Positions 5,057 through 61,096 of a stretch of 64,000 bases of DNA are shown here, piece by piece. Position 1 is the stretch's first letter; the number at the start of each line of letters is the position of its first letter. Origin of the DNA: an uncultured Burkholderiales bacterium (GTDB lineage Bacteria > Pseudomonadota > Gammaproteobacteria > Burkholderiales > Burkholderiaceae_C). The notes beneath the pieces are model-generated. The model searched no databases, was not told where the DNA came from, and worked only from the letters and a program-made list of their open reading frames with translations. The position numbers and the translations under genes were made by a program. The stretch covers positions 62,001-126,000 of the forward strand of contig CAIMTJ010000018.1 of assembly GCA_903844385.1 (NCBI GenBank), written 5' to 3'.

Positions 5057-5824
5057 TTAATTTTCAATCAATTCCTGAGCGGGATCTTCCATGGTCAAGG
5101 GATCCCAAAAAATCAACTCCAAATGACCATCATTGTGCTCAACCATGGCCGAACAACTCTCAACCCAGTCTCCATCGTTGCAATACAACATACCATTGAT
5201 TTCTCGAATTTGCGCACGGTGAATATGGCCACAAACCACGCCCTGAAGACCTCTTTTCTGGGCCTCGTTGGCCAAGGCATCTTCAAACGCTGTGGCGTGG
5301 TTGAGAGTTGACTTGACCTTGTGCTTTAGGTAAGCGGACAAAGACCAATAAGGCAGTCCAAAATGCGCACGAACTTTGGCCAGCAACCGATTCAATTGAA
5401 TGGTAAATTCGTAAAGTGTTCCGCCCACCACCGCGAGCCATTTGGCATACTTCACCACAACATCAAAGTAATCCCCATGGGTCACCCATAAAACCCGACC
5501 ATCGGCCAAGGTGTGGGTTGTTTCCGCCAGAATTGGAACATCACCAAACTGATGATTGACAAAATGCCTAGCAAACTCGTCATGATTGCCTGGAACGTAA
5601 GTGACTTTACAACCCTTTCTGGCCCGTCTGAGGAGCTTTTGAATGACATCGTTGTGGTCCTGGGGCCAATACCACTTCCGACGGAGTTGCCAACCGTCCA
5701 CCACGTCGCCCACCAGGTATAAAAAATCGCTGCTGTTGTGCCTTAAAAAACTGAGCAAGACGTTGGCTTGACAACCCGGAGTGCCCAAATGAAGGTCGGA
5801 GATAAAGATGGTACGGTAATGCAT
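5057..5824 (-). CDS. plcP: PlcP-like phospholipase C (metallophosphoesterase), copy 1
   Basis: A calcineurin-like metallophosphoesterase of 255 aa with all metal motifs: SDLHLG (near residue 8), GDVVDGW, GNHDE, THGDYFD and GHIHRA. The block LRRKWYWPQ plus LPYWSLS is what I associate with PlcP, the enzyme that in some alphaproteobacteria cleaves phosphatidylcholine or phosphatidylethanolamine to diacylglycerol under phosphate starvation. Databases often label this group UDP-2,3-diacylglucosamine diphosphatase (LpxH-like), which remains an alternative. Its ATG overlaps the stop of the upstream acyltransferase gene (TGATG), so translation is probably coupled. A second copy is at 21343-22110. Confidence 0.8.
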   Translation of the reverse strand: MHYRTIFISDLHLGTPGCQANVLLSFLRHNSSDFLYLVGDVVDGWQLRRKWYWPQDHNDVIQKLLRRARKGCKVTYVPGNHDEFARHFVNHQFGDVPILAETTHTLADGRVLWVTHGDYFDVVVKYAKWLAVVGGTLYEFTIQLNRLLAKVRAHFGLPYWSLSAYLKHKVKSTLNHATAFEDALANEAQKRGLQGVVCGHIHRAQIREINGMLYCNDGDWVESCSAMVEHNDGHLELIFWDPLTMEDPAQELIEN

Positions 5825-6666
5825 CAATGTCCCAAGAAATGCTTTCTGTAGCGGTTGGGCAAATCGCAAATACGCATCAGCATGGGTAAATCTGCGGTGT
5901 TGAAGTCTGGATCCCAGGCTGGCGCACCCAGTACTTTGGCGCCCAATTTTAGATAGCCTCGAATCAAAGCCGGAGGCTCAATGTGTTGTTGAGTGGTAAA
6001 TTGATCCACTGGCAAAGGCAACCAAGGTTTGACCTGAAGATCGAGAGGCGCCATTTGCGCTTCTTTAAGTTGAGAAAAAATACTGGCGGCGGCTTGGCCG
6101 CTGACCACTCCATTGTGCAACATCGGTATGCTCGCGCAACCAATCATGATGTCCAACTGATTTCTAACCATGAACTCAGCCAAGGCACCCCACAGTGACA
6201 AGATGACCGAACCTTGACGGTAGTTGGGATGCACACAAGACCTGCCGAGTTCCACCATTCGGTCTTCAATCCCTTGAAGATTTGACAAATCAAATTCGGT
6301 CTGGGTGTAGTTGCCACCCATGCGCTTGGCTTGAACAGGCGTTAATACCCGGTAGGTTCCCACCACTTCCAAGGTGTTTTGATCACGCACGATCAAATGC
6401 TCACAATAATCATCGAAGGAATCAATATCGTGTTCTTCAATCGGGGATTGGATTTTGGCGCCCATTTCACCTACAAAAATCGAATATCGCAATCGTTGCG
6501 CAGCACGTACCTCGTCAAGGTGGTGCGCCCAAGAGACGGATATTTGACCCCTTTGTGTTGGGGACGACAATTGAGATGCGGCTATCTCACTGGTTGATTG
6601 ATGAAGTACACCTGATGACATAACGGCAGGTGACAAATCGTGTATCAGCCCAGGAAACTCTTTCAT
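5824..6666 (-). CDS. OlsB-like N-acyltransferase (GNAT fold), copy 1
   Basis: 280 aa. The core reads as the OlsB/autoinducer-synthase-like acyltransferase family: RAAQRLRYSIFVGEMG, then DIDSFDDYCEHLIVRD, VVGTYRVL and VELGRSCVHPNYR. OlsB transfers a 3-hydroxyacyl chain from acyl carrier protein to ornithine, the first step of ornithine lipid synthesis; the partner O-acyltransferase OlsA is not in this window. ATG 6666 is preceded by GGAG at proper spacing; an upstream TTG (6687) was rejected. It heads a two-gene operon with plcP copy 1 and has a Pho box-like element upstream. The amino acceptor is not determinable. Confidence 0.75.
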   Translation of the reverse strand: MKEFPGLIHDLSPAVMSSGVLHQSTSEIAASQLSSPTQRGQISVSWAHHLDEVRAAQRLRYSIFVGEMGAKIQSPIEEHDIDSFDDYCEHLIVRDQNTLEVVGTYRVLTPVQAKRMGGNYTQTEFDLSNLQGIEDRMVELGRSCVHPNYRQGSVILSLWGALAEFMVRNQLDIMIGCASIPMLHNGVVSGQAAASIFSQLKEAQMAPLDLQVKPWLPLPVDQFTTQQHIEPPALIRGYLKLGAKVLGAPAWDPDFNTADLPMLMRICDLPNRYRKHFLGH

Positions 6667-6721
6667 GTTGACTCCATTGATGTTCAATGAAAGAAGTTTC
6701 GTGATTTGTCATGACGCAATC

Positions 6722-6750
6722 GTGTCAATTTAATGAAGATTTATTGACAA
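6722..6750 (-). promoter_or_regulatory. Pho box-like element for acyltransferase/plcP copy 1
   Basis: Read on the minus strand, three 7-mers lie in 11-bp phase: TTGTCAA, TCTTCAT and TTGACAC, separated twice by TAAA. The PhoB consensus is two CTGTCAT-type 7-mers spaced by 4 bp. It lies 56 bp before the chosen ATG at 6666. The -10 element is not obvious. Confidence 0.6.
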
Positions 6751-6931
6751 ACAAGAGTATCTGCCTCGAGGGATGAACCATCAACTAAATTAACTGAAGA
6801 ATTAACTTAAACCTCACGAATCAACAACATCATCAGACTTTATAGAGATCAAAGCTTTCAAAGCCACGCACGCAATGAAGCACCCATGAAATTCACCCAG
6901 TTCGCTCAAATGATGCACATCAATGCAAGCC

Positions 6932-6965
6932 CTGTCATCAAATAGTCACATCAGCAGGATAGATT
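6932..6965 (+). promoter_or_regulatory. Pho box with -10 element for porin-pstS operon
   Basis: CTGTCAT-CAAA-TAGTCAC at 6932-6949 is the best match in the window: the first 7-mer is perfect and the second has five of seven bases. TAGATT at 6960-6965 is a -10-like hexamer exactly 10 bp downstream, the spacing known from E. coli Pho promoters such as phoA. About 95 bp to the porin start. Confidence 0.7.
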
Positions 6966-7060: not shown

Positions 7061-8461
7061 ATGCTAGCTTTTCTCATACGGCTTTATTTCATTGTCGGAT
7101 TTTTCATTGCATTTCCAGCATTGGCTCAAAGGGTGGGATCGGACATTGATGATCAACTTTTGAAATCCAGAGTGAATACCGAGGTTAATTCATCGGTTTC
7201 CAGCGCAATGGATAGCCTCATGAGTGAACAAACCTGGTCAGCAAAAGGTCAGGCGACCATCGTCAATCAATCCCATCGAGGATTTCGTGCCAAATACTCT
7301 GGTGACAATAGTCTGACCAATGACAAGTCAAGCAAGGAAACCTTTGACGCCACGTTGTATCTAGGGCTCAAGCTATCGCGAGGTTTAGAAGCCTACGTCA
7401 ACCCAGAAATCGATCAAGGATTTGGTCTGAGCAACACATTAGGCGTTGCAGGTTATACAAGTGGTGAAGCTTATAAGGTGGGGCAACAAAATCCCTATTA
7501 CCGATTGCCTCGGGCATTCCTGCGTCAAACCATTGACCTTGGCGGAGAGATTTTTCAATTGGATGAACAACCGAACCAATTGGAAAAAACCATCACGAGC
7601 AACAATTTAACCTTGACTTTGGGCAAGTTCTCGGTCGTTGATATATTTGATACCAATACCTACGCCCATGACCCCAGATCGGATTTTTTTAATTGGTCAA
7701 TTCTGGATGCTGGCGCCTTTGACTATGCGGCCGATTCGTGGGGTTTCACACATGGCGCAGCACTCGAGTGGAACCAAGACTGGTGGGCTATAAGAGCAGG
7801 TTATTTTGCGCTATCGACACAACCCAACAAAGAGACCATTGATGCCTCATTCAAGCAAAATGAATGGGTGGCTGAGTTTGAAGAGCACCATCAAGTTGGA
7901 GTGCATCCTGGCAAATTGAAGCTTTTAACTTATATCAACCATGCAAATATGGGTTTGTACTCTGATGCATTGGCCATGAGCGCTTTAAGAGGTGGATCAC
8001 CAGATACATCACTGGTGAGGAAAATGAATCAAAAATCCGGCTGGGCATTGAACATTGAGCAAGAACTCACGAGTTCAATGGGGTACTTTTTAAAGTACAG
8101 CAAGAGTGATGGGACCAAAGAGGCATTTGATTTTACTGAAATCAATCACTCTCTTGCCACAGGAATCCTTTTGAAAGGAAACCCCTGGAAGCGTCACAAT
8201 GACAGCCTCGGCCTAGCTATTGTCAAGAACAACATCAGCCGCGATGGACAAGCTTATTTTGCTGCAGGTGGTATGGGTATTTTAATCGGCGACGGTGCCT
8301 TGAACTACGCAAGCGAGGAGATCATAGAGACTTTTTACAATGTGGTATTCAACCCCACATTCAACATGGCATTGAATTACCAAAACGTGAAAAATCCTGG
8401 CTATAACAAAGACCGTGGACCTGTGAACATTTTCGGAGTGCGTTTCCATGTCAATTTCTAA
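7061..8461 (+). CDS. OprB-like carbohydrate-selective porin family protein
   Basis: 466 aa with a signal peptide (hydrophobic residues 2-20, cleavage after ALAQ) and a beta-barrel ending in a C-terminal aromatic residue (RFHVNF). The pattern LTLGKFSVVDIFDTNTYAHDPRSDFFNW and the overall layout match the OprB family, outer-membrane porins usually tied to sugar uptake. The pstS start lies inside the 3' end of this gene (14-bp overlap) and a Pho box lies upstream, so a role in uptake of phosphate or organophosphate is more likely here than sugar uptake. Substrate is inferred only from context. Confidence 0.78.
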   Translation: MLAFLIRLYFIVGFFIAFPALAQRVGSDIDDQLLKSRVNTEVNSSVSSAMDSLMSEQTWSAKGQATIVNQSHRGFRAKYSGDNSLTNDKSSKETFDATLYLGLKLSRGLEAYVNPEIDQGFGLSNTLGVAGYTSGEAYKVGQQNPYYRLPRAFLRQTIDLGGEIFQLDEQPNQLEKTITSNNLTLTLGKFSVVDIFDTNTYAHDPRSDFFNWSILDAGAFDYAADSWGFTHGAALEWNQDWWAIRAGYFALSTQPNKETIDASFKQNEWVAEFEEHHQVGVHPGKLKLLTYINHANMGLYSDALAMSALRGGSPDTSLVRKMNQKSGWALNIEQELTSSMGYFLKYSKSDGTKEAFDFTEINHSLATGILLKGNPWKRHNDSLGLAIVKNNISRDGQAYFAAGGMGILIGDGALNYASEEIIETFYNVVFNPTFNMALNYQNVKNPGYNKDRGPVNIFGVRFHVNF

Positions 8462-9530
8462 GACAAAGGAGAGCCTCAGCAAGACCTGCCATCTAGGAAT
8501 CAGACTGGTTGCATTTGTTTGTGTTCTCGGATTGAACTCATTGAGTGTTCAAGCAAATTCTGATATTTTGGGCGCTGGCGCCACCTTTCCCCAACCCATC
8601 ATCGATACATGGCTCAAAGCGTTTCAAAAACAGCAAATACTCACCGCAGAATATGAAGCGTTGGGGTCAGCGGAAGGAATTAGACGAATCACTTCTCGCT
8701 CTGTTGATTTTGGAGTGACAGACATAGCCCTCACGCAGTCGGAATTGGCACATGACGATTTATTTCAGTTTCCACTGGTGGCGAGCGGAATCGCTCCTGT
8801 CATTAACTTGCCAGGTGTGGATGTCCAAGCTTTGAAACTCTCTGGACCGTTGCTGGCTCGCATCATGATGGGTCACGTTATTGTTTGGGATGACCCAGAA
8901 ATTAAAGCGCTGAACCCGAACTTGGAACTTCCTTCCATACCGATCTCGGTCATACACAGACAAGAAGGTTCTGGCACCACATTTACTTTCACACATTATT
9001 TATCCCAAATCAGCGCCGAATGGGATGCTCGGTTTGGAATTGGTTCTCAAGTGATGTGGCCCATCGGCCTATCAGTCAAAGGCAACCTCGGGATGGCCCA
9101 ACAAGTCAAATTGTTGCCCGGATCGATTGGTTACATCGAATTCATGTACGCCAAGCAATACCAATTGGGGACACCCAGCTTAGGAAATAGCGAAGGGCAG
9201 TACTTGCAACCATCATTGCAATCGTTTACACAAGCTACAAACCAAGCTCGATGGACACGCCCTTCTTTTTATCAAAGTCTCACCAACATGCCTGGCGCTG
9301 GAAGTTGGCCAATTATGGGAGTTTCCTACGTACTTCTTCACAAACTACAAAATGATTCAAAAGATGCGGCAGAAACATTAAAACTGTTAAACTGGATTTA
9401 CACCAACGGATCTGGACTTGCCAAGAGTCAGGACTACATTTTAATTGATGACATCACAGTTTTGACTCGCATTCGATCAGGTTGGGCCCAAATGCGTGAC
9501 ACCAAGGGTCAACTGATTCAGAAGCCTTGA
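8448..9530 (+). CDS. pstS: PstS-like phosphate-binding periplasmic protein
   Basis: 360 aa with a Sec signal (residues 1-36, VQA cleavage). The phosphate-binding loops are recognisable: LGAGATFPQP at the mature N-terminus, ALGSAEGIRRI, VDFGVTDIALTQSEL and RQEGSGTTFTFTHYLS. PstS captures inorganic phosphate for the PstCAB ABC transporter. No pstC, pstA, pstB or phoU is adjacent; it is instead fused by overlap to a porin gene. It could supply a transporter elsewhere or act as a scavenging or sensing protein. The following small secreted protein gene starts 8 bp after its stop. Confidence 0.9.
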   Translation: MSISKTKESLSKTCHLGIRLVAFVCVLGLNSLSVQANSDILGAGATFPQPIIDTWLKAFQKQQILTAEYEALGSAEGIRRITSRSVDFGVTDIALTQSELAHDDLFQFPLVASGIAPVINLPGVDVQALKLSGPLLARIMMGHVIVWDDPEIKALNPNLELPSIPISVIHRQEGSGTTFTFTHYLSQISAEWDARFGIGSQVMWPIGLSVKGNLGMAQQVKLLPGSIGYIEFMYAKQYQLGTPSLGNSEGQYLQPSLQSFTQATNQARWTRPSFYQSLTNMPGAGSWPIMGVSYVLLHKLQNDSKDAAETLKLLNWIYTNGSGLAKSQDYILIDDITVLTRIRSGWAQMRDTKGQLIQKP

Positions 9531-9538
9531 GAGGACAA

Positions 9539-10172: not shown

Positions 10173-10733
10173 TTAGAGTCTCAAAATTAACATTTTTAAA
10201 TGCTCGCCGATACGCTCATTGCGATCACTCAAGTAATTAAAAGCAAACAGTCCAACCAACGCAATTGAAATCCCCAAGGCTGTCGCATACAGAGCCGTAC
10301 CAATCCCTGCACTGACACCGGCAGGATCAGACATGCCAGACTTTGAGAGCGCCAAAAAGGTATCGACAATTCCAAATATCGTTCCCAGTAAACCCATCAA
10401 AGGTGCAGCAGTCACAATCGTATCCAAAATCCATAAACGCGCACTCAATTCATCTTTGGCATGAATAAATGCCGCGTCTGCACGGTCTTGCTGCACGGAT
10501 GGCGCATAATTTTTATTTTTATCGTCTATGAGCTTTTGAACCATCTCAGACACCACATCAGAACCCAACAGTGTACTGATTGGGATCTGAGTGGAATCAA
10601 AGCTGGTCATGATGAGCTTTGCACGTCGCAAATTCATACCAGAAAAGATAATTCTCTCGATACTCACCACAATCGCGATGATGGCCGAAAAAATCATCAA
10701 TCCAAAAGAAGCTTGGTGCAAAAATTCAGTCAT
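10173..10733 (-). CDS. exbB: ExbB/TolQ/MotA-type proton channel protein
   Basis: 186 aa with three membrane segments (FGLMIFSAIIAIVVSI near residue 10; TAAPLMGLLGTIFGIVDTF near 108; ALGISIALVGLFAFNYL near 150). The pattern TAAPLMGLLGTIFGIV is diagnostic of the ExbB/TolQ family. ExbB and ExbD use the proton gradient to energise TonB. It is shorter than typical ExbB (about 240) and closest to compact variants. It is the last gene of an exbD-tonB-receptor-exbB operon, 7 bp after the receptor stop, an unusual order with exbB and exbD at opposite ends. Confidence 0.88.
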   Translation of the reverse strand: MTEFLHQASFGLMIFSAIIAIVVSIERIIFSGMNLRRAKLIMTSFDSTQIPISTLLGSDVVSEMVQKLIDDKNKNYAPSVQQDRADAAFIHAKDELSARLWILDTIVTAAPLMGLLGTIFGIVDTFLALSKSGMSDPAGVSAGIGTALYATALGISIALVGLFAFNYLSDRNERIGEHLKMLILRL

Positions 10734-10740
10734 GATTTAC

Positions 10741-13131
10741 TTAAAATTCGGAACTAAAGGTCATACTGACGAAACGTGGAGCACTCACATAATATGTGGG
10801 TATACCACCGCCTGGAGCGCTGGTGTTGACCGTTGTGGTGATGCTGGAGCCACTACCTGAGTTAGCCAACAAATACTTCGCGTTGAAGATATTGGACATA
10901 TTCAAGCGAACTGTAGGTTGCTTAAAGAATGTTCCAGAATCAAAGCGATAACCAGCATTGAAGTCAAACACGGTGAAAGCGTCCAAGTACTCATCATTGA
11001 CGAGCGTGGTGTAACGCTTGCCCGTGTATTTACCGTTCAAAGCAGCCATGAATGGCCCACTGCTGTACTGCATGGATGCACCATACATCCACAATGGTGT
11101 ATCAGGGAAAGCAGAACCAGCAGTCGGTAATGTTGTTGAGACTGATGCTTGGAAATTATTCAAGATCGTGCTTCTGGTGTATGTAGCCGATCCAAATACA
11201 CTCCAGCCATTGACGGGCTTGCTGCCCAATTGCATCTCAAGACCTTTAACTCTGGAGTCACCCACGTTGTAGTCGGTGTAAGAGTTGGTGTCAGGGTTAT
11301 AGCTTTGCGCAATTCGATTCTTAAACTCGACATCAAACAAAGCCACCGAACCTTTGACTGCGTCGGTATTGAAGCGCATACCAGCTTCATAGGACGTGGA
11401 TGTCTCAGGCTGAACAGTTGGGGTGAGCAATTTGTAGCCCGTTAAAGCACCATTCACGAATGAGCCACCAGACACCAGACCCGACAACACAAAGTTGGCA
11501 GGGTCTTTTTGGTTTTGGGACATATTGCCATAGATTTGCAAGTCATCGTTGACTTTGTATTTGGCGCCCAAAGAAGCCAATGGTTTGCTGTAAGTGGTAG
11601 AGATGCCATAGTTTGCGCCCATACCGGAACCACTTGAAGCGTAGTTGGTGAAGTCACGCTTCAAAGAATTGAGGCGCACACCTGGAACAATGTCAAGTTT
11701 ACCAATGGAGATGGTGTCAGTTACAAATGCTGAGTAGGCCGTATTTTGAGTCAAATAGTTACGACCTTGATACAAACTGCCATCATTGTATTTGATCAAA
11801 TTGGTAGCCAACCAAATGTCGCCGATAGCACCGTTGTTATCAACAGTTGTCGCTGGTTGTGTTTGACGATGGTTGGCTTGCTCAATCCAAAGACCTGCCA
11901 AAATCTTTTGGTTCTCCAATGTGTAATTGGCTTTGAACGTGATGCCAGGACGCTTGGTTTCAGTGACGCTACCACGGTAGACGCCAACCGTATCGGTGAG
12001 CTTACCGTTGCGATTGATATCAGCAATGCCGCCGTGGATACCTGTGGTGCCTTCAGCCAAAGTGGTTTGTAAATTGCCACCAGTGCCATAACCATACCAA
12101 TAATAGGGCTCAGCACTGAGGGTCAACTTGTCATCAATTCGAGTTTGCAAACGCGATGTGAATAGGTAGTTCACAAAGGGGTTCAAAGAATAACCGTAAT
12201 ACACATTGGTAGCCCTGACACCTGTCGCAGTTGCACTGCTGGTTCCAAAGTTAGCCGTCGTGTTCTCAGCTCCAGCGGCCAAATGTTGTGGAACATTACC
12301 AGAAAAATCCAGACTTGGATTTTGTGCAAATTCAGCCTTCGTGAGAGTTAAATAGTTGTTGTTGAGCTGATAGTTGTAGAGCAAATTGGTCGTGAGAGAG
12401 GTGTCGTCTGTGAGCTTCCACTCAAAACCCGTATCCACGTGAGACTTGTTACCCTGACCAAAACCTTTGAACTTATTCACCGTTGCGTTGGAGTATGAAA
12501 CATAGGCCTTAAAGGGATGCTCTTTACCAATCACGCCTGTATCCAAGCGCAAGTATGTTCTTTTGAAGGACAAGTCACCCAAAGTCTCAGAAATTCTTCC
12601 GCCAAATTTATCTTTGGGTGAACAACTCACCATACCCACGTTGCCGCCGGATGCTCCTACGTGAGGAGACTCTGTGTCTACAGATCCTTGTGTGATCGAG
12701 ATTTCACAAAGATTTTCTACGTCAGCGTACTCTTGGGGATAGATGGCAAAGTTACCTGAATCATTCACGGGTGCGCCATTGATGGTGTAACCCATCTCAT
12801 CGCTATTAAAACCGCGAACACGCATATTGCCACCAAAAATACCCGTCGAATCGTAGCTGTAAGCATTAACGCCAGGCTCCAAGTTCAACAACTGGAATGG
12901 GTTAGCCGTTGGACGCTCTTTATCAATAGCAGTTTTGGTCACTGTGCTTTTATTTTTTACACCATCTTCATCAATCAACAGGCCATTGCCGACTTGATCA
13001 CCTACACCAGAAATTTTCACGGTTCCAACATTCGTGGGCGCAGATTGTGCCCACGATTGAGAGATGCAACCCGCTCCAATGAGCGCCAAGCTCAATACAG
13101 AGAGTTGAAACACTTGATTCGATTTTTTCAT
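10741..13131 (-). CDS. TonB-dependent outer-membrane receptor
   Basis: 796 aa with signal peptide (SWAQ cleavage near residue 29), a plug domain (NPFQLLNLEPGVNAY, then GNMRVRGFNSDEMGYTINGAPV around residues 75-120) and a large beta-barrel ending FSSEF, the usual terminal aromatic. AGGAG precedes the ATG. Such receptors import scarce substrates (siderophores, cobalamin, and in some bacteria organophosphates). Embedded in its own energising operon next to a phosphate-binding protein, it may handle a phosphorus compound, but sequence alone does not give the substrate. Confidence 0.9.
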   Translation of the reverse strand: MKKSNQVFQLSVLSLALIGAGCISQSWAQSAPTNVGTVKISGVGDQVGNGLLIDEDGVKNKSTVTKTAIDKERPTANPFQLLNLEPGVNAYSYDSTGIFGGNMRVRGFNSDEMGYTINGAPVNDSGNFAIYPQEYADVENLCEISITQGSVDTESPHVGASGGNVGMVSCSPKDKFGGRISETLGDLSFKRTYLRLDTGVIGKEHPFKAYVSYSNATVNKFKGFGQGNKSHVDTGFEWKLTDDTSLTTNLLYNYQLNNNYLTLTKAEFAQNPSLDFSGNVPQHLAAGAENTTANFGTSSATATGVRATNVYYGYSLNPFVNYLFTSRLQTRIDDKLTLSAEPYYWYGYGTGGNLQTTLAEGTTGIHGGIADINRNGKLTDTVGVYRGSVTETKRPGITFKANYTLENQKILAGLWIEQANHRQTQPATTVDNNGAIGDIWLATNLIKYNDGSLYQGRNYLTQNTAYSAFVTDTISIGKLDIVPGVRLNSLKRDFTNYASSGSGMGANYGISTTYSKPLASLGAKYKVNDDLQIYGNMSQNQKDPANFVLSGLVSGGSFVNGALTGYKLLTPTVQPETSTSYEAGMRFNTDAVKGSVALFDVEFKNRIAQSYNPDTNSYTDYNVGDSRVKGLEMQLGSKPVNGWSVFGSATYTRSTILNNFQASVSTTLPTAGSAFPDTPLWMYGASMQYSSGPFMAALNGKYTGKRYTTLVNDEYLDAFTVFDFNAGYRFDSGTFFKQPTVRLNMSNIFNAKYLLANSGSGSSITTTVNTSAPGGGIPTYYVSAPRFVSMTFSSEF

Positions 13132-13186
13132 AATAACTCCTGGTAATTTACAATCAAAATAAAATGGGAAAATACTAGCAATACGG

Positions 13187-13897: not shown

Positions 13898-13901
13898 GAC
13901 A

Positions 13902-14336
13902 TCATTTCTTTTTAGAAGCAATGGTCATGGAGTCGATCCCATTGGATTTCAACAAGTCCATCACATCGACCAACTGTTGTAGCCTGGAATGCTCATCACC
14001 ATTGATGATGATCACCAAATTCTTTTTCACATCCTCAGGATTCTCACCCGCTTGTGTTTTGAGTCTGATCAATTCAGGCTGCATGGCGCCTAAATTGGGA
14101 TAGGTTTTACCGTCCAGTTGAAACTCGCCATCTTCGGCAATTCCTAAGATGACACGCTTGGGCGGATGGTCTTCGCGCGCTTGGGACGATTGCGGCAACC
14201 GCATTTTTAATCCCAGTGCTGGAATCACATTGATACTGATCAACACAAAAAACACAAGCAAAAACATCATCACATCAATCATGGGGATGATCTCGATGCG
14301 TGTGCGTTTGCGCGCTTGGGTTGGGAATCTTCGCAT
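13902..14336 (-). CDS. exbD: ExbD/TolR biopolymer transport protein
   Basis: 144 aa with the family hallmark IEIIPMIDVMMFLLVFFVL (residues 14-32), including the membrane Asp that carries protons, and a periplasmic domain. First gene of the TonB operon. No ribosome site precedes the ATG; a Pho box-like sequence and a TAAACT -10 place the transcription start at or near the ATG itself, suggesting a leaderless transcript. Confidence 0.93.
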   Translation of the reverse strand: MRRFPTQARKRTRIEIIPMIDVMMFLLVFFVLISINVIPALGLKMRLPQSSQAREDHPPKRVILGIAEDGEFQLDGKTYPNLGAMQPELIRLKTQAGENPEDVKKNLVIIINGDEHSRLQQLVDVMDLLKSNGIDSMTIASKKK

Positions 14337-14342
14337 GCATAA

Positions 14343-15837: not shown

Positions 15838-15851
15838 ATCAACTGGCAAAA

Positions 15852-17522: not shown

Positions 17523-17572
17523 GTAGATTCCTTTTGTTGAAAAGTTCAGTTTTATTACGTTTGGATGAAGAA

Positions 17573-18553: not shown

Positions 18554-18609
18554 CTGTCAACGAAATGACATCCATTTGTCATCATATCTTCACCCTTGGA
18601 CTTCACAAT
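18554..18609 (+). promoter_or_regulatory. Extended Pho box array and -10 for UDP-glucose dehydrogenase
   Basis: Four 7-mers in 11-bp phase: CTGTCAA (18554), ATGACAT (18565), TTGTCAT (18576) and TCTTCAC (18587). CACAAT at 18604-18609 lies 10 bp after the last one. The leader to the ugd ATG is about 55 bp. Confidence 0.6.
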
Positions 18610-18672: not shown

Positions 18673-20106
18673 ATGCGCATCACCGTCATGGGAACAGGTT
18701 ATGTCGGCTTGGTCACGGGCACGTGCTTGGCCGATTTGGGCAACGATGTCCACGGATTTGACATTGATGAGGCCAAAGTGGCTCGCATCATTGCAGGAGA
18801 CATCCCCATCTATGAACCCGGCCTTGATGCACTGATTCTTAAAAACGTCGAGACAGGGCGCCTCACCTTCAGCGCCGATTTAAAGCGCAGCGTGGAGACG
18901 GCAGACATTATCTTCATCGCCGTTGGAACGCCCTCCAATGATGACGGCTCGGCCGATACTCGACAAGTCATTGCCGCAGCCAAGAGCATTGGTCAACTGA
19001 TGAATGATTTCAAGGTGGTGGTCAACAAGTCGACTGTGCCCATTGGCATGGCCGACATTGTCAAGGCGACCATTGAGCACGAACTCGATCTTCGCTTTGG
19101 CAAGCAAGCGCACACACAACGACCTGCTTTTGCAGTGATCTCCAACCCCGAGTTCTTGAAAGAGGGCTCGGCTGTGGATGACTTCATGCGACCCGATCGC
19201 ATTGTTTTGGGCATTGAAGACAATGAGTCGGGCACTCGCGCCAAAGAGATGATGCGTCAGCTCTACGCACCCTTCAATAGAAATCATGAAAGAACATTGG
19301 TGATGAACGTGCGCTCGGCCGAATTCACCAAATATGCTGCCAACGCGATGCTGGCGACTCGCATCTCTTTCATGAACGAAATGGCCAATTTGGCAGAGCG
19401 AGTCGGTGCAGACATCGATTCCGTGCGACAAGGCATCGGTTCAGACCCGCGCATTGGTTACAGCTTTTTATATGCAGGAACCGGCTATGGCGGATCGTGT
19501 TTCCCCAAAGACGTTCAAGCCCTGCAATACACGGCCAACTCCCATGGGCTTCCATTTCGGATTTTGTCGGCAGTGGAGTCAGTGAACCAACGTCAAAAAC
19601 ATGTCATTGCAGAAAAAATCACAGCCTACTTTGACAACAACTTGACAGGACTGACCTTTGCGGTTTGGGGACTGGCGTTCAAGCCCAACACCGACGACAT
19701 GCGCGAAGCGCCCTCACGCGTCTTGATCAAAGAGCTGCTCAGCCGTGGAGCCAAGGTCGTGGCCCACGACCCCGTGGCCATGCAAGCAGCTGAGCATGCC
19801 TTCAAGGAGGACTTGGCCGAGCACCCCGAGTACCTGAGCCGTTTGAGCTTTTCCAGCCACGCGATGGACAACCTCAAAGGTGCAGACGCCTTGATAGTGC
19901 TCACCGAATGGAAAGAGTACAAGAGCCCCAACTTTGCCACCATCAAAGCCTCTTTGAAGAAAGCCATCATTTTTGATGGTCGCAATTTGTACGAGCCTCT
20001 TGCCATGGCGCAAGCGGGTTTTGTGTACGAGGGCATTGGACGCAGAAGCTCAGATGTGCTTTGGCCTAGTCCTAGCACCCCGGTCACGGCGAGCACCACA
20101 CCGTAA
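18673..20106 (+). CDS. ugd: UDP-glucose 6-dehydrogenase
   Basis: 477 aa. The NAD-binding motif [17 protein letters not shown] is at the N-terminus, the catalytic Cys lies in YGGSCFPKD near residue 275, and the UDP-binding C-terminal domain follows. It oxidises UDP-glucose to UDP-glucuronate. GGGAG precedes the ATG. It is convergent with a GT4 glycosyltransferase, so the product could feed glucuronosyl-diacylglycerol synthesis; capsule or exopolysaccharide use is the alternative, but no such genes are nearby. The upstream Pho box array supports a phosphate-stress role. Confidence 0.93.
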
Positions 20107-20173: not shown

Positions 20174-21178
20174 CTAAGTCTTAGGCAATGGGCGCAAAGC
20201 CCCGAGAAACTGTGCCGAAGCCGCTGCCCAACTGAAGGTCATGGCATGCGCCAAGACGCCTGGGCGTGGGATCTCCAAGGCCGCCAAGCAAGCCGCCTTC
20301 AAGTCACGATCGAGCACCCCAGACACCCCCTGCTTGACCACATCAATGGGCCCAGGCACCGGCAGCGCTGCCACGGGTGTGCCACAGGCCATGGCTTCGA
20401 GCATCACCAATCCAAAGGTATCGGTCACACTGGTAAAGACAAACACATCGGCCGCCCTGTAAAGGCTGGCGAGTTGCTGGGCATTTTGCATCCCAAACCA
20501 TCGCACTTGAGGGTAAGCTTGTCGCAAACGTTCCCCCTCAGGACCGTCTCCGGCGACCCACTTTTCTCCGGGCAAATCGAGCTTTAAAAACTCATCGACT
20601 TGTTTTTCCACAGCCAAGCGACCCACATGCAAAAAGATCGGACCCTTGCCCCTGGCAAGGGTCTCGCCTTGTGGGCTAAAACGCGCAAAATCCACCCCTC
20701 GACTCCAAACTTGTGGAGAGCGAAACCCTCGAGCCAACAGATCGTTGACGATGGCTGGGGTGGGCGCCAAATTGGCCTGAGCCGCATTGTGAAATCGACG
20801 CAGCAGTGCATAACTCCAAGAGACGGGCAATTTGAAACGCAAGTTGACGTACTCTGGGAAACGGCTGTGATAGGACGTGGTGAAAGGCCATCCACGCTCC
20901 ATGGCCACACCCCTTGCCGCCCAGCCCAAGGGGCCCTCGGTGGCAATGTGTAGGCAGTCTGGTGCGAATCGATCAATCAAGCGCTTGACCGCGGCTTTGC
21001 CCGCCCAAGCCAAGGTGATCTCTGGATAGGTTGGGCAGGGAAAGGACTTGAAGAGCTGGGGCGTGATGAGCTCCACCTCGTGGCCCAAAGCTCGCAACTC
21101 CTGGGTGGTCATGGTGAGCGTGCGAACCACCCCATTAACTTGGGGGTCCCAGGCGTCAGTGACGATGAGAATTTTCAT
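20174..21178 (-). CDS. GT4 glycosyltransferase, candidate diacylglycerol glycosyltransferase (Agt-like)
   Basis: 334 aa with a GT-B fold: N-terminal MKILIVTDAWDPQVNGVVRT, and C-terminal FTSVTDTFGLVMLEAMACGTPVAALPV holding the retaining-GT4 EX7E-type donor motif. The start follows plcP copy 2 after 164 bp on the same strand. In marine alphaproteobacteria PlcP is paired with Agt, which glycosylates the diacylglycerol it releases using UDP-glucose or UDP-glucuronate; the same partnership is likely here, with ugd supplying UDP-glucuronate. Acceptor and sugar are inferred. Mannosyltransferases of the same family are the alternative. Confidence 0.8.
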   Translation of the reverse strand: MKILIVTDAWDPQVNGVVRTLTMTTQELRALGHEVELITPQLFKSFPCPTYPEITLAWAGKAAVKRLIDRFAPDCLHIATEGPLGWAARGVAMERGWPFTTSYHSRFPEYVNLRFKLPVSWSYALLRRFHNAAQANLAPTPAIVNDLLARGFRSPQVWSRGVDFARFSPQGETLARGKGPIFLHVGRLAVEKQVDEFLKLDLPGEKWVAGDGPEGERLRQAYPQVRWFGMQNAQQLASLYRAADVFVFTSVTDTFGLVMLEAMACGTPVAALPVPGPIDVVKQGVSGVLDRDLKAACLAALEIPRPGVLAHAMTFSWAAASAQFLGALRPLPKT

Positions 21179-21342: not shown

Positions 21343-22110
21343 CTAAGAGACGACCGGGGTCAAGGCCTTGACGTGTTCGACCAGTTGATCCCAATACACA
21401 ATCTCCAAGCGGCCGTCCATGTGTTCGACCAAGGCGGTGCGACTCTCCACCCAGTCACCATCGTTGCAGTAAAGGATGCCATCGATGTCTCTGATTTCAG
21501 CGTGATGGATGTGACCACACACCACACCTTGGTAGCCCCGACGCTTGGCCTCTTTGGCCACCGCCACCTCGAACTCATTGATGAAACCCACCGCTTGTTT
21601 GACCTTGTGTTTCAAAAAGGCAGACAGTGACCAGTACGGTAGACCCAATTTTGCTCGCAAAAGGTTGTAGTACCGGTTGAGCTTCAAGGTGAGTTCATAC
21701 AAGTAGTCCCCCACATAGGCCAGCCACTTGGCGTATTTCACCACCGCATCAAAGAAGTCGCCATGGATGAGCCACAGCACTTTGCCGCTGGCCGTGGTGT
21801 GGGTGGTCTCTTTGAGCACCTCCACCCCGCCAAAATGATGCTGCACAAAATTGCGAGCAAACTCATCGTGGTTGCCGGGCACATACACCACATGACAGCC
21901 TTTTCTGGCCATGCGCAGCAGTTTTTGAATCACATCGTTGTGAGCTTGCGGCCAGTACCACTTGCGCCGCAATTGCCAACCATCGACGATGTCGCCAATC
22001 AAGTACATGTGCTCACAGTCGTTTTCACGCAGAAAGTCAAGCAGCGACTCAGCCTGACAGCCTTGGGTTCCTAGGTGAACGTCGGAGATGAAGATGGCGC
22101 GGTAATGCAT
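21343..22110 (-). CDS. plcP: PlcP-like phospholipase C (metallophosphoesterase), copy 2
   Basis: 255 aa, closely similar to copy 1 along its length, with SDVHLG, GDIVDGW, GNHDE, IHGDFFD and GHIHHA, and the same LRRKWYWPQ and LPYWSLS blocks. ATG 22110 overlaps the upstream acyltransferase stop as TGATG; a GTG one codon earlier also exists. The two copies keep the same partner and the same overlap, so the pair was duplicated as a unit. Likely role: release of diacylglycerol from phospholipids for the neighbouring glycosyltransferase. Confidence 0.8.
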   Translation of the reverse strand: MHYRAIFISDVHLGTQGCQAESLLDFLRENDCEHMYLIGDIVDGWQLRRKWYWPQAHNDVIQKLLRMARKGCHVVYVPGNHDEFARNFVQHHFGGVEVLKETTHTTASGKVLWLIHGDFFDAVVKYAKWLAYVGDYLYELTLKLNRYYNLLRAKLGLPYWSLSAFLKHKVKQAVGFINEFEVAVAKEAKRRGYQGVVCGHIHHAEIRDIDGILYCNDGDWVESRTALVEHMDGRLEIVYWDQLVEHVKALTPVVS

Positions 22111-23174
22111 CACGTTCTCAATGCGCGGTTAGAGTGGACCATCAAGTCTTGTGTGCGCATCATCAAAGCCCAGTGGATGGCACCGTGCTCGCGACTCCAA
22201 CAAGGCTGCCCCATCACCTTGGCACCCCAGCGCAAATAGGTCCTGAGCGGCTCAGACAGCGTGACCTGCGCAGCTCGTTGACTTGCTGAGCCGCAGTGCT
22301 CAGTGAGCACCCCCTCGTTGGAGCTAGACGAATCCTCTTTGAGTGCATTCAACGGGTAACGGGCACGCAAATGGAATTCAAACGGGCTCAAATGCTCATC
22401 TCGAATGTGCTGCCAAACAGCGCGAGTGTCCACGCTAGAGGGTCGCTTCAAGGCCTGCCCTGCACCGGCGTGCAACTCGATGTCCTGCGCGACGAGCTCT
22501 TGGGACATGCAAACCACCATCAAGAGTTGATTGCTTTGGACAAAGCCCAAGATTTGGTCTTGCAACAAACGCAAGATTCGCCTTTGAACAGAAATTTTCA
22601 AGCGAGGATCAATGCAGACTCGACCCAATTCAAGAACTTTTGCGCGCCAAGCGCGAATCCGAGTCAAATCAAAATCATGCTCCAACTCAAGACCACCGAC
22701 TCGCTTGGCTTGGGCTGGGGTCAATAAGCGACAAGCCGCCAAGATCTGCCCCGATAAACCATCCTTGACCATGATGTGTTCACAATACTCGTCAAAGATA
22801 TCTTGCACCACGCCTTGGGGCTCAAACCCATCCATGGGGCTTGGCATCGACGAGAAGGACGCAGGGGTGGTGTCTCGGTGTTGGCGCAATTGGCCCAATT
22901 GGCCCAACTGGGCTCGATGTGCGAACGCGAAGAGGTGGCAGACTTGAGCGCGAAAAACTTGAATGTCGCGCAATTGCTCTTCTTGCCTGACCCAACACAC
23001 AGACATTGGCGGCTGGGGCAAAGTGGCTTCAGAAATCATCGGCTGAGCAACGCTTTGTGCAGCAGAGCTGTTGCTAAAAATCGATTCGGTCTGGCTCTTG
23101 GGTGGGGTGGGCGAATGCAACGGGGAAAAGTGAGGATGGGGATCAAAACCGTGGGGGTCAGGGATGGGTAACAT
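22110..23174 (-). CDS. OlsB-like N-acyltransferase (GNAT fold), copy 2, diverged
   Basis: 354 aa, about 75 longer than copy 1, through a Pro/Ser-rich N-terminus and a loop with LGQLGQL made by a 9-bp tandem repeat (22881-22907). The block FDEYCEHIMVKDG, AACRLLTPAQAKRVGG and LELGRVCIDPRLK matches copy 1, but the RLRYSIF substrate-tunnel motif is replaced by FRAQVCHLF, so activity or specificity may differ. It heads the operon acyltransferase-plcP-glycosyltransferase and is preceded by a good Pho box. Confidence 0.65.
   Translation of the reverse strand: MLPIPDPHGFDPHPHFSPLHSPTPPKSQTESIFSNSSAAQSVAQPMISEATLPQPPMSVCWVRQEEQLRDIQVFRAQVCHLFAFAHRAQLGQLGQLRQHRDTTPASFSSMPSPMDGFEPQGVVQDIFDEYCEHIMVKDGLSGQILAACRLLTPAQAKRVGGLELEHDFDLTRIRAWRAKVLELGRVCIDPRLKISVQRRILRLLQDQILGFVQSNQLLMVVCMSQELVAQDIELHAGAGQALKRPSSVDTRAVWQHIRDEHLSPFEFHLRARYPLNALKEDSSSSNEGVLTEHCGSASQRAAQVTLSEPLRTYLRWGAKVMGQPCWSREHGAIHWALMMRTQDLMVHSNRALRT
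22881..22907. repeat. Coding 9-bp tandem repeat
   Basis: Three near-perfect copies of TTGGCCCAA (first copy TTGGCGCAA) in frame in acyltransferase copy 2, encoding repeated Leu-Gly-Gln on the minus strand. Confidence 0.85.
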
Positions 23175-23205
23175 GCAGTGGATGATGGTGTATAAGCTTA
23201 CAAAA

Positions 23206-23334: not shown

Positions 23335-23838
23335 TCATGGGTTGGAGCGAATCCATTGAATGGGGTATTGCTGAGGCGCTGGTGTCCAAGTGGGGGGCTC
23401 CACCCCAACAACGGTGTAGCTGGGGCAGGCGTAACGCTCAATGTCGCGTGCGTCCAGTGGAAACGAGTTGCAATTGGAAAAACGCCGAAACGGCGAGTGA
23501 TAGATACCGCATTGGAATTCCTCTTCGCTCGTTTGCTCCAGAAATACACATCGCTTGTCCAAGCAACAGTTCCCGCACTTGATGCACTCGCCCTCGATGG
23601 TGGGTGGGATCACCGCCTCAATGGAGACAACGTCGTTGAAATAATGTTCAATGGGGCCTTCACGCAAGGCTTGGATGTAGACCGTGAGCTTTTTAAGGGT
23701 TTGCCAATATTGCAAAACAAAGCGGGGTTTCAAAAATGCCAAGCTGATCAACAAGGGGAGAATGGGCATCAGAACGTAAAAAACGCCGATACTGAGTTTG
23801 GTGGCCAAATAAGCCAGTCTATTTTTGAAAATTTCCAC
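23335..23838 (-). CDS. Cysteine-cluster (YkgJ/CxxCxxCC-type) membrane-anchored protein
   Basis: 167 aa from GTG 23838. An N-terminal membrane segment (SIGVFYVLMPILPLLISLAFL) precedes a cysteine cluster: ECIKCGNCCLDKRCVF, QCGIYH, SNCNSF and YACPSY. Such clusters in the YkgJ-type family are thought to bind a metal, zinc or an iron-sulfur cluster. A longer start at ATG 23877 is possible but would lie upstream of the transcription start predicted from the Pho box. No strong ribosome site supports either. It sits between two lipid operons with its own promoter; function unknown. Confidence 0.6.
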   Translation of the reverse strand: MEIFKNRLAYLATKLSIGVFYVLMPILPLLISLAFLKPRFVLQYWQTLKKLTVYIQALREGPIEHYFNDVVSIEAVIPPTIEGECIKCGNCCLDKRCVFLEQTSEEEFQCGIYHSPFRRFSNCNSFPLDARDIERYACPSYTVVGVEPPTWTPAPQQYPIQWIRSNP

Positions 23839-23864
23839 ACCTACATATCTATGATTTAGGCTGA

Positions 23865-23898
23865 ACTTTATGCACATTTGGTGACAATTGTGTGAATA
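23865..23898 (-). promoter_or_regulatory. Pho box-like element and -10 for Cys-cluster gene
   Basis: Minus strand TATTCAC-ACAA-TTGTCAC (23898-23881), then 10 bp, then TAAAGT (23870-23865). The second 7-mer is strong, the first weak. Confidence 0.45.
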
Positions 23899-23947
23899 TT
23901 CACACCAAATCGACACCCAATCTCAAGCCTACCCCTTCCAACGGACT

Positions 23948-24982
23948 TCAAGCCCCCCAAGCCATCAAGTCCTCATGGCTCAAGCCAGCGCTTGATCTCT
24001 CCAAGCACTTGAAGAGTTGGGCCTTCCAATTCAAGCAACTCAAGGGCGGCTTGACCAAGGTGTATTCCAAGTGGGGCTGCCCTCCTCTTTTGCGCTTGAA
24101 GTCACCCGCTCCGGAGCTGAAGTTGAGTAGCAACTTGTGCGCCAAGGTGTAGCGATAAATATCCACAAAGAGTGCGCGGTACAAACCCTTGCCTTCATCG
24201 TCGAGCGCGTATCCAAGAGCCGGCACGGTCAGTGTGCGGGCGACTTGGTACAACAGCGCAAAGGCCCGGATGTGCCCTTGGGGGCTCCTTAAGACCAAGC
24301 ATTTCATTGAGCCCGTGTTGACCATGTCGGCAAAAAAATGCGGCGTGTATTGGGCATTGAAGGGGCCGTGCTTGAGGACATAAATCAGGTCATAAAGCGC
24401 TTTTATTTGCGCAGCCTCTTGGGGCGTGATCGCCGTGAGCACCTCACTTTGGAGTTCCAGTTGTTGTCTGCCCTTCATATCCCGCATCAATTGGGAGGAT
24501 TTTTTGGGGGCTGCGTCACGCAAATCGAACTCATAAACCACTCTGGCTGGAAGCGCATAAAACCCCAAAGTTTTGAGCTGCTGGCGCAACTCGGTGTGGT
24601 GCTGAGCATGCACGTTTCTCACGAACACAAAACGCTTGGGCTGGTCTTGGACAACCCGCTCACAAAGAGCGGGGATGTGTTTTAACTCGGCGGGTGTCCA
24701 CACATTGGTCGAGACCGGGTAGTTCGCCACCACACACTGGTGACTCAAACCGACCACATCGGCCAAGCGTCCCATCGCGCCCAGCGCCCAAGATACCCCT
24801 GGGCGGTGCTGCGTCTCTAAGGCCGCATAGTCAAACCAGCCGATCTTGGGAGAGGTGATAAAACATGGGGCCTTGGGGAGGGTTGGGTGCGAACACGTCA
24901 CAGGCAGTGAGACCCCAAGTTCATGCCACGTCAAAGTCGCCCCCGCGTTTTGCATCCAGTCGCTCAAGAGCCAAGAGCGCAT
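23948..24982 (-). CDS. CelD/FemAB-like acyltransferase (GNAT superfamily)
   Basis: 344 aa. The C-terminal half (LVLRSPQGHIRAFALLYQ, then LGYALDDEGKGLYRALF and NFSSGAGDFKRKRGGQPH) has the layout of CelD/BioF2-like GNAT acyltransferases, where a final Gly-x-x-x-Phe/Tyr-Lys motif is typical. It follows the BtaA-like gene after 17 bp, so the two form an operon. BtaA normally pairs with the methyltransferase BtaB; this protein takes that position and may instead acylate the homoserine-type head group or another amine. That is a hypothesis; the substrate is unknown. Confidence 0.6.
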   Translation of the reverse strand: MRSWLLSDWMQNAGATLTWHELGVSLPVTCSHPTLPKAPCFITSPKIGWFDYAALETQHRPGVSWALGAMGRLADVVGLSHQCVVANYPVSTNVWTPAELKHIPALCERVVQDQPKRFVFVRNVHAQHHTELRQQLKTLGFYALPARVVYEFDLRDAAPKKSSQLMRDMKGRQQLELQSEVLTAITPQEAAQIKALYDLIYVLKHGPFNAQYTPHFFADMVNTGSMKCLVLRSPQGHIRAFALLYQVARTLTVPALGYALDDEGKGLYRALFVDIYRYTLAHKLLLNFSSGAGDFKRKRGGQPHLEYTLVKPPLSCLNWKAQLFKCLERSSAGLSHEDLMAWGA

Positions 24983-24999
24983 CGACGAGCTCTCGCGCT

Positions 25000-26241
25000 T
25001 TAGGCTTGCAAGCGATACAGATGAAACGCGCCGTAAACACCGGAGCGATCCAGGGGCCCCAAGGCGTCACTCACCTGATCGTCTCGTTTCCAGCGCTGCA
25101 CCAACTCTGGCGTGAGATTGGCGTCCACTGGCGAGACTTCCCCTGCCGTTCTAAAGATGACTCGAGCACCCGGTTTGGCCGCTTTCGTGATGGCTTGCCA
25201 AAGCACGGTGACCTCGCTGGGTGACATCCAGTCTTGGGCGTCGAGCAAATTCACAATGTCCACCGATTCTGCGCCCAACTGGTTCAATTTATCGCGGATA
25301 TTGTTGTGCTCGATGTCCAACTTGGTCATTGAGGCGCGCAAAGAAGGGTAGTTCTCCCGCTTCAAATAAGCGGGCAAAGGACCGCGTGCAGACTCATCGT
25401 ATTTTCTGGCAAAAGCTTGCCAAGCAAAGTAATTATCCGCCACCGGCACCACGGTGGCCAAGTGGCGCGCGCGCTGCTTTAAGATCTCAGACATGTTTTG
25501 GGGAATGTTGTTACAAAGCACCGTGTGCTGACTCGGTGGAATACCGAGGTTATAAAGCGCATAGGGGCTGCTACAAATCTTGGCGACCAAGCGGTTGTCA
25601 AATATCTTGGCCACATGTTGATCAAACCACTGGGCTTGGTCTTCGACGGTTTTTTGCAGCAACAAGTCCGACAACTTCACCCGGTGGAGTTTGGCCCCCA
25701 AATGAATGACCCCAATGATTTGCCCCAACAGCCCAAACTTATAAAACCCCTTGGCAAACATTTGAATGCGCTTAAAGCCAAAGGTGGCATGCTCCCAGTA
25801 GGCACGACTGGTTTGATCGAGCTGTGTGCTGATGATGTTGTGATAAATCCGAACATTGCTGCTGGACTTGGCCACACCAAAAAACCGATAAAAGTCCTCG
25901 TGCGAATCAAGCGTCTTGATGGCAGCGCGCTTTAATTGAATGAGAGCAATGTGTGCATGGTTCAAGTCCACCACGGAGACCTTGGCAGGATGCTCCAACA
26001 GATAACTCAATGCGTTGCAACCCCCACTGGCAATGGTGAGCATGTGGTCGGTGCTTTTGATCTCGAGCGCTTGGATGTCGATTTGTGGGTCTTCCCATAT
26101 TTGGGTATACACCAAACGGTCAAACCACATGGCAAACAGCTTGTCCTTCAAAGTGGTCTTGTCTTTGTGGCCAAAAACCGCATTGTTGACCAAGGACTTT
26201 GATTTTTTCAAACTCAACGGTGGATTTGAAAGCATGTTCAT
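25000..26241 (-). CDS. btaA: BtaA-like S-adenosylmethionine:diacylglycerol 3-amino-3-carboxypropyltransferase (DUF3419)
   Basis: 413 aa. DKLFAMWFDRLVYTQIWEDPQID near residue 35 and the AdoMet motif MLTIASGGCNALSYLLEHPAKVSVVDLN near residue 70 are characteristic of DUF3419/BtaA. BtaA transfers the aminobutyrate group of AdoMet to diacylglycerol, the first step to the phosphorus-free betaine lipid DGTS. BtaB, the N-methyltransferase for later steps, is not next to it or in the window. GAAAGGAC precedes the ATG. A Pho box-like cluster is located upstream. BtaA family proteins with other functions exist, so DGTS itself is not assured. Confidence 0.85.
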   Translation of the reverse strand: MNMLSNPPLSLKKSKSLVNNAVFGHKDKTTLKDKLFAMWFDRLVYTQIWEDPQIDIQALEIKSTDHMLTIASGGCNALSYLLEHPAKVSVVDLNHAHIALIQLKRAAIKTLDSHEDFYRFFGVAKSSSNVRIYHNIISTQLDQTSRAYWEHATFGFKRIQMFAKGFYKFGLLGQIIGVIHLGAKLHRVKLSDLLLQKTVEDQAQWFDQHVAKIFDNRLVAKICSSPYALYNLGIPPSQHTVLCNNIPQNMSEILKQRARHLATVVPVADNYFAWQAFARKYDESARGPLPAYLKRENYPSLRASMTKLDIEHNNIRDKLNQLGAESVDIVNLLDAQDWMSPSEVTVLWQAITKAAKPGARVIFRTAGEVSPVDANLTPELVQRWKRDDQVSDALGPLDRSGVYGAFHLYRLQA

Positions 26242-26290
26242 GGCCTGACACAGTCCTTTCGCAATGAATGCAAAAGTAAATTATCAGCAC

Positions 26291-26335
26291 TTTATGTTTC
26301 AAAGCCATGAAGCTTGAGTGACGCTTTCATGACCC
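26291..26335 (-). promoter_or_regulatory. Pho box-like cluster and -10 for btaA operon
   Basis: Minus strand: three 7-mers in 11-bp phase, GGGTCAT (26335), GCGTCAC (26324) and GCTTCAT (26313), spaced by GAAA and TCAA; 10 bp later CATAAA (26296-26291). Confidence 0.5.
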
Positions 26336-61093: not shown

Positions 61094-61096
61094 GAT

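Follow-up and report, generated by a model that had tools for sequence, protein, structure and literature searches.

What lipid would be made by a bacterium that carries the first gene of the betaine-lipid pathway, btaA, followed by a GNAT-like acyltransferase gene in the place where btaB would be expected? This question is raised by a 64,000-nucleotide stretch of DNA (hereafter, the window; contig CAIMTJ010000018.1, positions 62,001 to 126,000) from the metagenome-assembled genome (MAG) of an uncultured Burkholderiales bacterium, 2.83 Mb in size and 88.6% complete, which we infer to be of Limnohabitans type. Genomes are labelled G and loci L throughout, the source MAG being G000 and the window G000:C18:62001-126000. 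An original prediction, made from the letters of the window, had seen here an island for the remodelling of membrane lipids under phosphate starvation. When genes were assigned by open reading frames and hidden Markov model searches, all those that it had named were found to be present, namely two PlcP-like proteins, a GT4 glycosyltransferase, UDP-glucose 6-dehydrogenase (Ugd), a BtaA-like protein, two OlsB-like proteins, a CelD-like acyltransferase, phosphatidylserine decarboxylase (PSD) and PstS. We read the region as a PhoB-responsive lipid-replacement island in which BtaA and the GNAT-like protein yield N-acyl-diacylglyceryl-homoserine (N-acyl-DGHS) instead of the betaine lipid diacylglyceryl-trimethylhomoserine (DGTS), and give this reading a probability of roughly 0.55.

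In the pathway proposed, PlcP would cut phospholipids to diacylglycerol (DAG), from which point GT4 would make glycolipids using UDP-glucose and Ugd-derived UDP-glucuronate, and OlsB would start an amino-acid lipid. BtaA would transfer the 3-amino-3-carboxypropyl group of S-adenosylmethionine (SAM) to DAG, giving DGHS, whose free alpha-amine would most likely be acylated by the GNAT-type enzyme, and not methylated by BtaB. The end product, taking the place of zwitterionic DGTS, would be phosphorus-free and probably anionic, because acylation of the amine removes its positive charge and the carboxylate stays. More tentatively, and at less than even odds, BtaA and GNAT may make N-acyl-DGHS as a three-chain, anionic, phosphorus-free lipid class of phosphate-starved betaproteobacteria (Limnohabitans, Polynucleobacter), a stand-in for phosphatidylglycerol or cardiolipin and not for phosphatidylcholine.

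The BtaA protein of the window looks intact and is predicted to make DGHS. It scores 338.8 bits on PF11899 (cut-off 28.2) and keeps 52 of the 54 positions conserved across both BtaB-partnered clades, 45 of the 54 being kept at ≥90% across 33 rows of GNAT-partnered BtaA. A tree built from 86 BtaA proteins places those partnered by GNAT with the larger BtaB-partnered clade, a long way from a second DUF3419 clade. On this tree the labels of the partners require 6 changes (mean of 29.9 in shuffles), and the GNAT label alone requires 4, indicating that GNAT partnership is clustered without forming one clade. A sequence search of PDB with BtaA returned only five weak methyltransferase matches, the best at E = 0.031.

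Pairing of btaA with the GNAT gene recurs well beyond the source genome. A GNAT profile scan of named genomes gave 29 loci, in 26 of which (L066–L091) BtaA adjoins GNAT, a proportion biased toward the BtaA context because the profile was built from 12 proteins, every one from beside BtaA; the remaining three are Bacillota loci without BtaA. Twenty-five of the 26 are titled as proteobacteria and one as an uncultured bacterium, and in 25 the GNAT gene lies on the same strand, its aligned start 18–147 bp downstream, with L077 divergent. Across 101 relatives, a DUF3419 gene was found in 15 and GNAT in 12, all 12 beside BtaA, though at least 10 loci of the named-genome scan overlap with genomes of this set and the counts therefore overlap. 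We reject chance adjacency on the strength of this recurrence, seen in loci, relatives and strand alike. Two genomes with DUF3419 and no GNAT (G076, G089) have a more distant DUF3419 accompanied by BtaB (L032, L033).

Wider samples, in which partner adjacency was tested within 1.5 kb, place this pairing in context. In the phylum sample (398 genomes), all 29 fetched DUF3419 loci other than our own had BtaB alongside and none had GNAT (of the 31 matching genomes apart from our own, two with partial matches yielded no locus). In the order sample (399 genomes; 11 of 40 yielding no locus), the 29 fetched non-own loci divided into 9 with GNAT, 19 with BtaB and 1 with neither. Both partner profiles were built in part from loci later counted with them, the first BtaB profile taking 12 rows from phylum-sample loci, with L051 left out; a separate all-against-all BLAST grouped the methyltransferase beside BtaA in 22 phylum-sample loci. 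As for the evolution of the pair, the ratio of nonsynonymous to synonymous rates (dN/dS) over five pairs was 0.17–0.32 for GNAT and 0.02–0.09 for BtaA, the GNAT values being rough in two of the five, where dS was about 1 or more. GNAT thus evolves faster, with both genes constrained, which argues against its being a decaying copy. Distance matrices of BtaA and GNAT were correlated (r = 0.85 across 27 loci; none of 2000 permutations reached this value), which could come from shared ancestry alone.

DGHS is an intermediate of a known pathway, in which BtaB methylates its free alpha-amine to give DGTS (PMC3972451), and a betaine lipid of this kind was what the original prediction had expected of BtaA. 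That expectation is not supported by a search for BtaB, which was found in none of 13 genomes with this BtaA type: the BtaB profile reached at most 46.8 bits (best 39.7 bits in G000, 88.6% complete), against 324, 333 and 346 bits for the three controls. Two of these control genomes had contributed rows to the profile; G124 had not. Because no BtaB was found, the predicted betaine route is incomplete here. An ordinary betaine lipid could still result if an unrelated methyltransferase encoded elsewhere turned BtaA's DGHS into DGTS and the GNAT protein had a separate job. Generic SAM methyltransferases, one of which could methylate DGHS, do give weak matches to the BtaB profile in all the genomes tested, in Polynucleobacter L084 even near the btaA–GNAT pair (37.5 bits), and BtaB is retained beside GNAT in L077 and L086. 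Nevertheless, nothing near BtaB level turned up in the 13 genomes, five of them listed as 99–100% complete, and such a scheme would leave the btaA–GNAT operon unexplained; we regard it as distinctly unlikely.

If the GNAT protein acts on DGHS, what would it add? Of the 30 members of its family, 22 have a match to PF13480 (Acetyltransf_6) at E ≤ 1 (best 6.1e-8), which makes the label CelD-like a fair one. Sequence searches of PDB with the window protein and with the family alignment gave no match, and an NCBIfam scan of the family gave six chance-level matches, none for the window protein. MprF-type enzymes add an amino acid taken from aminoacyl-tRNA, and the GNAT protein might likewise attach such an amino acid, or an acetyl group, to DGHS in place of a long acyl chain. 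This is compatible with the PF13480 matches and with weak matches of LPG_synthase_C, the C-terminal domain of lysyl-phosphatidylglycerol synthase, in 3 of 30 members (0.08 for L026); at the same time, these latter matches are near chance level, and homologues of the GNAT protein lie among fatty-acyl genes. We consider a small group or amino acid rather unlikely, and a long-chain acyl donor is preferred because of the fatty-acyl company that the distant homologues keep. The family does not belong to PF13444, the domain described as common to known aminolipid enzymes (PMC11631085), and descent from a common ancestor with OlsB was rejected (profile-comparison probability 0.1%).

These distant homologues (23–33% identity) are found on plasmids of Rhizobium, Shinella, Paraburkholderia, Roseateles, Paenibacillus and Deinococcus, and also in Metabacillus/Bacillus contigs. 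Fourteen of their loci were read, comprising 11 of 12 plasmid matches (H7 left out) and three Bacillota loci. Twelve of the 14 have a cluster in which the GNAT gene is accompanied by genes for an OleD-like reductase, an MBL hydrolase and an F390-type adenylating enzyme, and in 11 of the 12 KAS III can be seen as well; in the two Deinococcus loci, an ATP-grasp protein precedes GNAT without the cluster. In three of the 14 (L141, L150, L151) a DUF3419 gene directly precedes GNAT and no ATP-grasp gene is in view, and this DUF3419 keeps only 25–26 of the 54 BtaA positions. No homologue of KAS III, the OleD-like reductase or the adenylating enzyme was seen in any of the 26 BtaA–GNAT loci. The conserved order KAS III – OleD-like reductase – MBL hydrolase – F390-type adenylating enzyme – ATP-grasp or DUF3419 – GNAT (L141–L143, L145–L147, L149–L153 and L092–L094, with L152 and L153 seen in part) spans Pseudomonadota and Bacillota and includes a Rieske protein in some loci. 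It looks like a lipid pathway, on which a literature search found nothing.

Regulation by phosphate was assessed with the pattern TGTCAT-N5-TGTCAT, which we take to be the Pho-box consensus. With up to 2 mismatches allowed, the pattern occurs 13 times in the whole window, against 6.4 expected (none of 100 shuffles had as many). Seven of these matches lie in the intergenic DNA of the island (3,629 bases; 0.45 expected; 0 of 500 resamplings reached 7), forming four separate sites, with four of the matches overlapping on both strands before ugd. In relatives, sites with ≤2 mismatches within 250 bases upstream (L078, with short upstream DNA, left out) were found before btaA in 11 of 26 cases (1.1 expected), olsB in 4 of 7 (0.32), ugd in 3 of 3 (0.32), the Mpo1-like gene in 3 of 3 (0.22), exbD in 3 of 6 (0.35), plcP in 4 of 12 (0.25) and the aminotransferase gene in 1 of 3 (0.25). 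None was found upstream of GNAT, which is second in its operon (0/23), nor of glmM (0/3), ftsH (0/2) or the PSD gene (0/5). The weak site before the window's own btaA has its position, −93, in common with the three closest relatives (L066–L068). The island is bounded by ppk on the left and glmM on the right, with ppx beyond ppk and, left of ppx, a pstS-pstC-pstA-pstB-phoU-phoB-phoR locus by Pfam assignment. The pst–pho stretch L019 shows no overall excess at ≤3 mismatches (16 matches, 14.8 expected), 4 of the 16 being pairs before pstS and ppx. Judged from these predicted Pho boxes, the island is probably PhoB-responsive. Together with its PlcP, GT4 and Ugd content and the nearby pst–pho locus, the Pho-box excess supports, computationally, the proposed phosphate-starvation lipid-remodelling island.

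Several observations weigh against N-acyl-DGHS as the product, in addition to the bias of the profile scan, the possible effect of shared ancestry and the generic methyltransferases mentioned above. The window's GNAT protein has no Pfam match at E ≤ 1, only 3 of 8 singly listed family members reach the PF13480 cut-off (22 bits), and profile comparison of GNAT with OlsB gives nothing. Three Bacillota and 11 plasmid GNAT loci lack BtaA of this type, and the DUF3419 of the clusters may perform other chemistry. L077 and L086, MAG loci labelled Rhizobium/Rhizobiales, hold BtaA, GNAT and BtaB together. In the phylum sample, where up to five candidates per genome were scored, GNAT reached E ≤ 1e-15 in only four genomes: the source genome, beside BtaA, and G155, G268 and G444, in which the homologue lies away from a BtaA–BtaB pair, in two of the three within a KAS III-type cluster. 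Since L077 and L086 hold both partners, and these three genomes have BtaA–BtaB with GNAT elsewhere, GNAT is no strict substitute for BtaB; both can be present at once, perhaps serving two branches. The window's btaA is preceded by a weak Pho-box-like site, and upstream of 15 of the 26 btaA genes no site with ≤2 mismatches occurs. Finally, G010 has this BtaA type with neither GNAT nor BtaB found and with a DAG kinase gene adjoining, as would fit DGHS being the final lipid and the GNAT protein using another substrate (an amino acid or a glycolipid) while merely co-regulated. This we hold to be improbable, given that the btaA–GNAT operon is met again in several families within the order and in MAGs labelled Rhizobiales.

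The proposed N-acyl-DGHS module (btaA and the GNAT-like gene, module B) shares the island with two sets of PlcP and OlsB genes. Module A, olsB1-plcP1, adjoins ppk and has its counterpart in the OlsB-PlcP-GT4-PPK order of L026, L028 and L030; module A′, olsB2-plcP2-GT4, is a second set with a much diverged olsB2, and ugd, the PSD, class-III aminotransferase and Mpo1-like genes lie between the modules. A GT4 follows PlcP in L026, L028–L030 and L086, so that PlcP is found in the company of GT4 or other genes for phosphorus-free lipids. Placement of the PlcP-like proteins within LpxH, which the original prediction had named as refuting it, does not hold, as they score 37–48 bits on two LpxH models (cut-offs 134 and 190) and are 25–26% identical to the genome's LpxH candidate, another protein, which scores 186.5 bits, slightly below its cut-off of 190.35. 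In L086, labelled Rhizobiales, the PlcP encoded close to GT4, BtaA and BtaB is 50–53% identical to the PlcP-like proteins of the window. PlcP2 is 97–99% identical in two neighbours, with dN/dS of 0.014. OlsB2 is 25% identical to OlsB1, with motifs in common, and has dN/dS of 0.29–0.33; between the same two genomes, OlsB2 is 64% and PlcP2 97% identical, and OlsB2 contains a variable insert. Neither OlsB1 (160 bits) nor OlsB2 (38 bits) reaches the NCBIfam OlsB equivalog cut-off of 350. No PlsC-type (OlsA) protein was present among the scanned island proteins, the genome not having been searched for OlsA.

Having three lipid routes together in a betaproteobacterium had been thought unusual, and the island had been taken for one coordinated system with extra, uncharacterised steps. 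The last of these was a good guess, the GNAT-like gene after btaA being one such step. The claim of rarity is not supported: of 101 genomes, 64 carry PlcP (46 from the genus, with the source genome included, and 18 others) and 60 carry OlsB, and inspection of the tables by eye showed OlsB next to PlcP in 29 genomes of the genus. Because of these frequencies, the PlcP and OlsB routes are ordinary for this group. Ornithine lipids have been published for Burkholderia (PMC7814305), and Agrobacterium carries genes for all three routes (PMC3972451). The idea of one coordinated system is not supported either: the btaA module lies away from PlcP genes in several relatives, e.g. L023–L025, and the class-III aminotransferase gene that adjoins the PSD gene is carried by 44 of the 101 relatives, of which no more than 6 have a DUF3419 gene. 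On the latter count we also rejected action of PSD and the aminotransferase on DGHS. In relatives, this aminotransferase often lies <10 kb from PlcP (judged by eye from tables), and the grouping of the Mpo1-like, class-III aminotransferase and second PSD genes (window 15080–18442) is seen again in L029 and L084. The source genome has a further PSD copy at G000:C18:16156-16665.

Other DAG-using genes adjoin the btaA module in relatives, a monogalactosyldiacylglycerol-synthase-type protein in L082 (4883–6070) and a DAG kinase beside BtaA in L029 (10608–11045). Only L020–L022, the closest three of the BtaA loci that were read, encode the 193-amino-acid cysteine-rich protein. The OprB-type porin, the PstS-like protein and a 140-amino-acid protein are consecutive (window 7061–9949), downstream of the Pho-box-like site at 6933. 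The ExbD–TonB–TonB-dependent receptor–ExbB set (10173–14375 with its upstream Pho-box-like site, which has one mismatch) possibly serves uptake of a phosphate compound, and parts of it have relatives near btaA in L069–L071, L073 and L074. GC content is about 45–48% over the first 16 kb of the window and 51–63% between 16 kb and 58 kb, and falls to 41–48% at 58000–64000, perhaps another acquired region. Coordinates are collected in the table.

Table 1 Genes and Pho-box-like sites of the island and its borders, in window coordinates.
Feature	Position	Strand	Remarks
Polyphosphate kinase	2819..4909	-	Left border of the island
PlcP1, predicted intracellular phospholipase C	5057..5869	-	Metallophosphoesterase; 69% identity to PlcP2
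OlsB1, predicted amino-acid N-acyltransferase	5824..6687	-	PF13444 8.9e-35
Pho-box-like site	6933..6949	+	Between olsB1 and the OprB-like porin gene
OprB-family porin	7061..8461	+	PF04966
PstS-like binding protein	8448..9530	+	PF12849
ExbD-TonB-receptor-ExbB set	10173..14336	-	Pho-box-like site 14359-14375
Mpo1-like protein	15080..15709	+	Weak match, below Pfam cut-off; upstream Pho-box-like site 14956-14972
Class-III aminotransferase	15852..17522	-	PF00202 5.8e-38
Second PSD	17504..18442	+	PF02666 3.9e-58
Overlapping Pho-box-like matches (4 of 7)	18554..18593	+	Upstream of ugd
Ugd (predicted UDP-glucuronate supply)	18673..20106	+	NDP-sugDHase 435 bits, cut-off 189.8
GT4, Agt-like diacylglycerol glycosyltransferase candidate	20174..21178	-	PF13439/PF00534
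PlcP2, predicted intracellular phospholipase C	21343..22113	-	PF12850/PF00149
OlsB2, fast-diverging OlsB paralogue	22110..23174	-	PF13444 2.7e-15
193-amino-acid cysteine-rich protein	23335..23916	-	No Pfam match
GNAT-like protein (344 amino acids)	23948..24982	-	Follows btaA after 17 bp, where btaB would be expected
BtaA (DUF3419), predicted SAM:diacylglycerol 3-amino-3-carboxypropyl transferase	25000..26241	-	PF11899 6.3e-101
Weak Pho-box-like site	26318..26334	-	Upstream of btaA; 3 mismatches of 12
GlmM	26408..27748	-	Right border; folP and ftsH next; all three named from translations, no family scan

Among the papers listed by literature searches, which covered an open-access library, none reports the btaA–GNAT pair in its title or the opening of its abstract. 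Limnohabitans and Polynucleobacter are described as widespread and abundant in fresh water (PMC13101498). If the N-acyl-DGHS reading is true, a route to an undescribed lipid would branch off at DGHS in abundant freshwater lineages, and BtaA alone would be an unsafe marker for betaine lipids in metagenomes.

Among known systems, PlcP-Agt remodelling in Pelagibacter, Agrobacterium and Pseudomonas aeruginosa (PA3219-PA3218) resembles the island in having PlcP followed by GT4, Pho-box-like sites and a supply of UDP-glucuronate (PMC4796936, PMC8528852, PMC5082522), whereas the operon here begins with OlsB (OlsB-PlcP-GT4 in relatives) and two sets, both partly complete, are present in the window. 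The ornithine-lipid pathway of OlsB and OlsA has PF13444 in common with OlsB1, which differs in having no adjoining olsA (the genome-wide search noted above not having been made) and in falling below the NCBIfam OlsB cut-offs. The PF13444 aminolipid N-acyltransferases OlsB, GluB and GlsB (PMC11631085) are alike in the GNAT-type N-acyl transfer proposed here, but the family partnering BtaA matches PF13480 and has no profile similarity to OlsB. The KAS III-type clusters contain a homologous GNAT, preceded by DUF3419 in 3 of 14 loci, and differ in the cluster genes, which have no homologues in the 26 BtaA–GNAT loci, and in the poorer conservation of their DUF3419 (25–26 of 54 positions). The BtaA–BtaB pathway of Rhodobacter and Sinorhizobium is matched in BtaA itself (52 of 54 positions), in the nearby PlcP and in regulation by phosphate (PMC3972451; PMC4796936), and is departed from at its second step, where no BtaB was found and a GNAT-like gene stands in its place.

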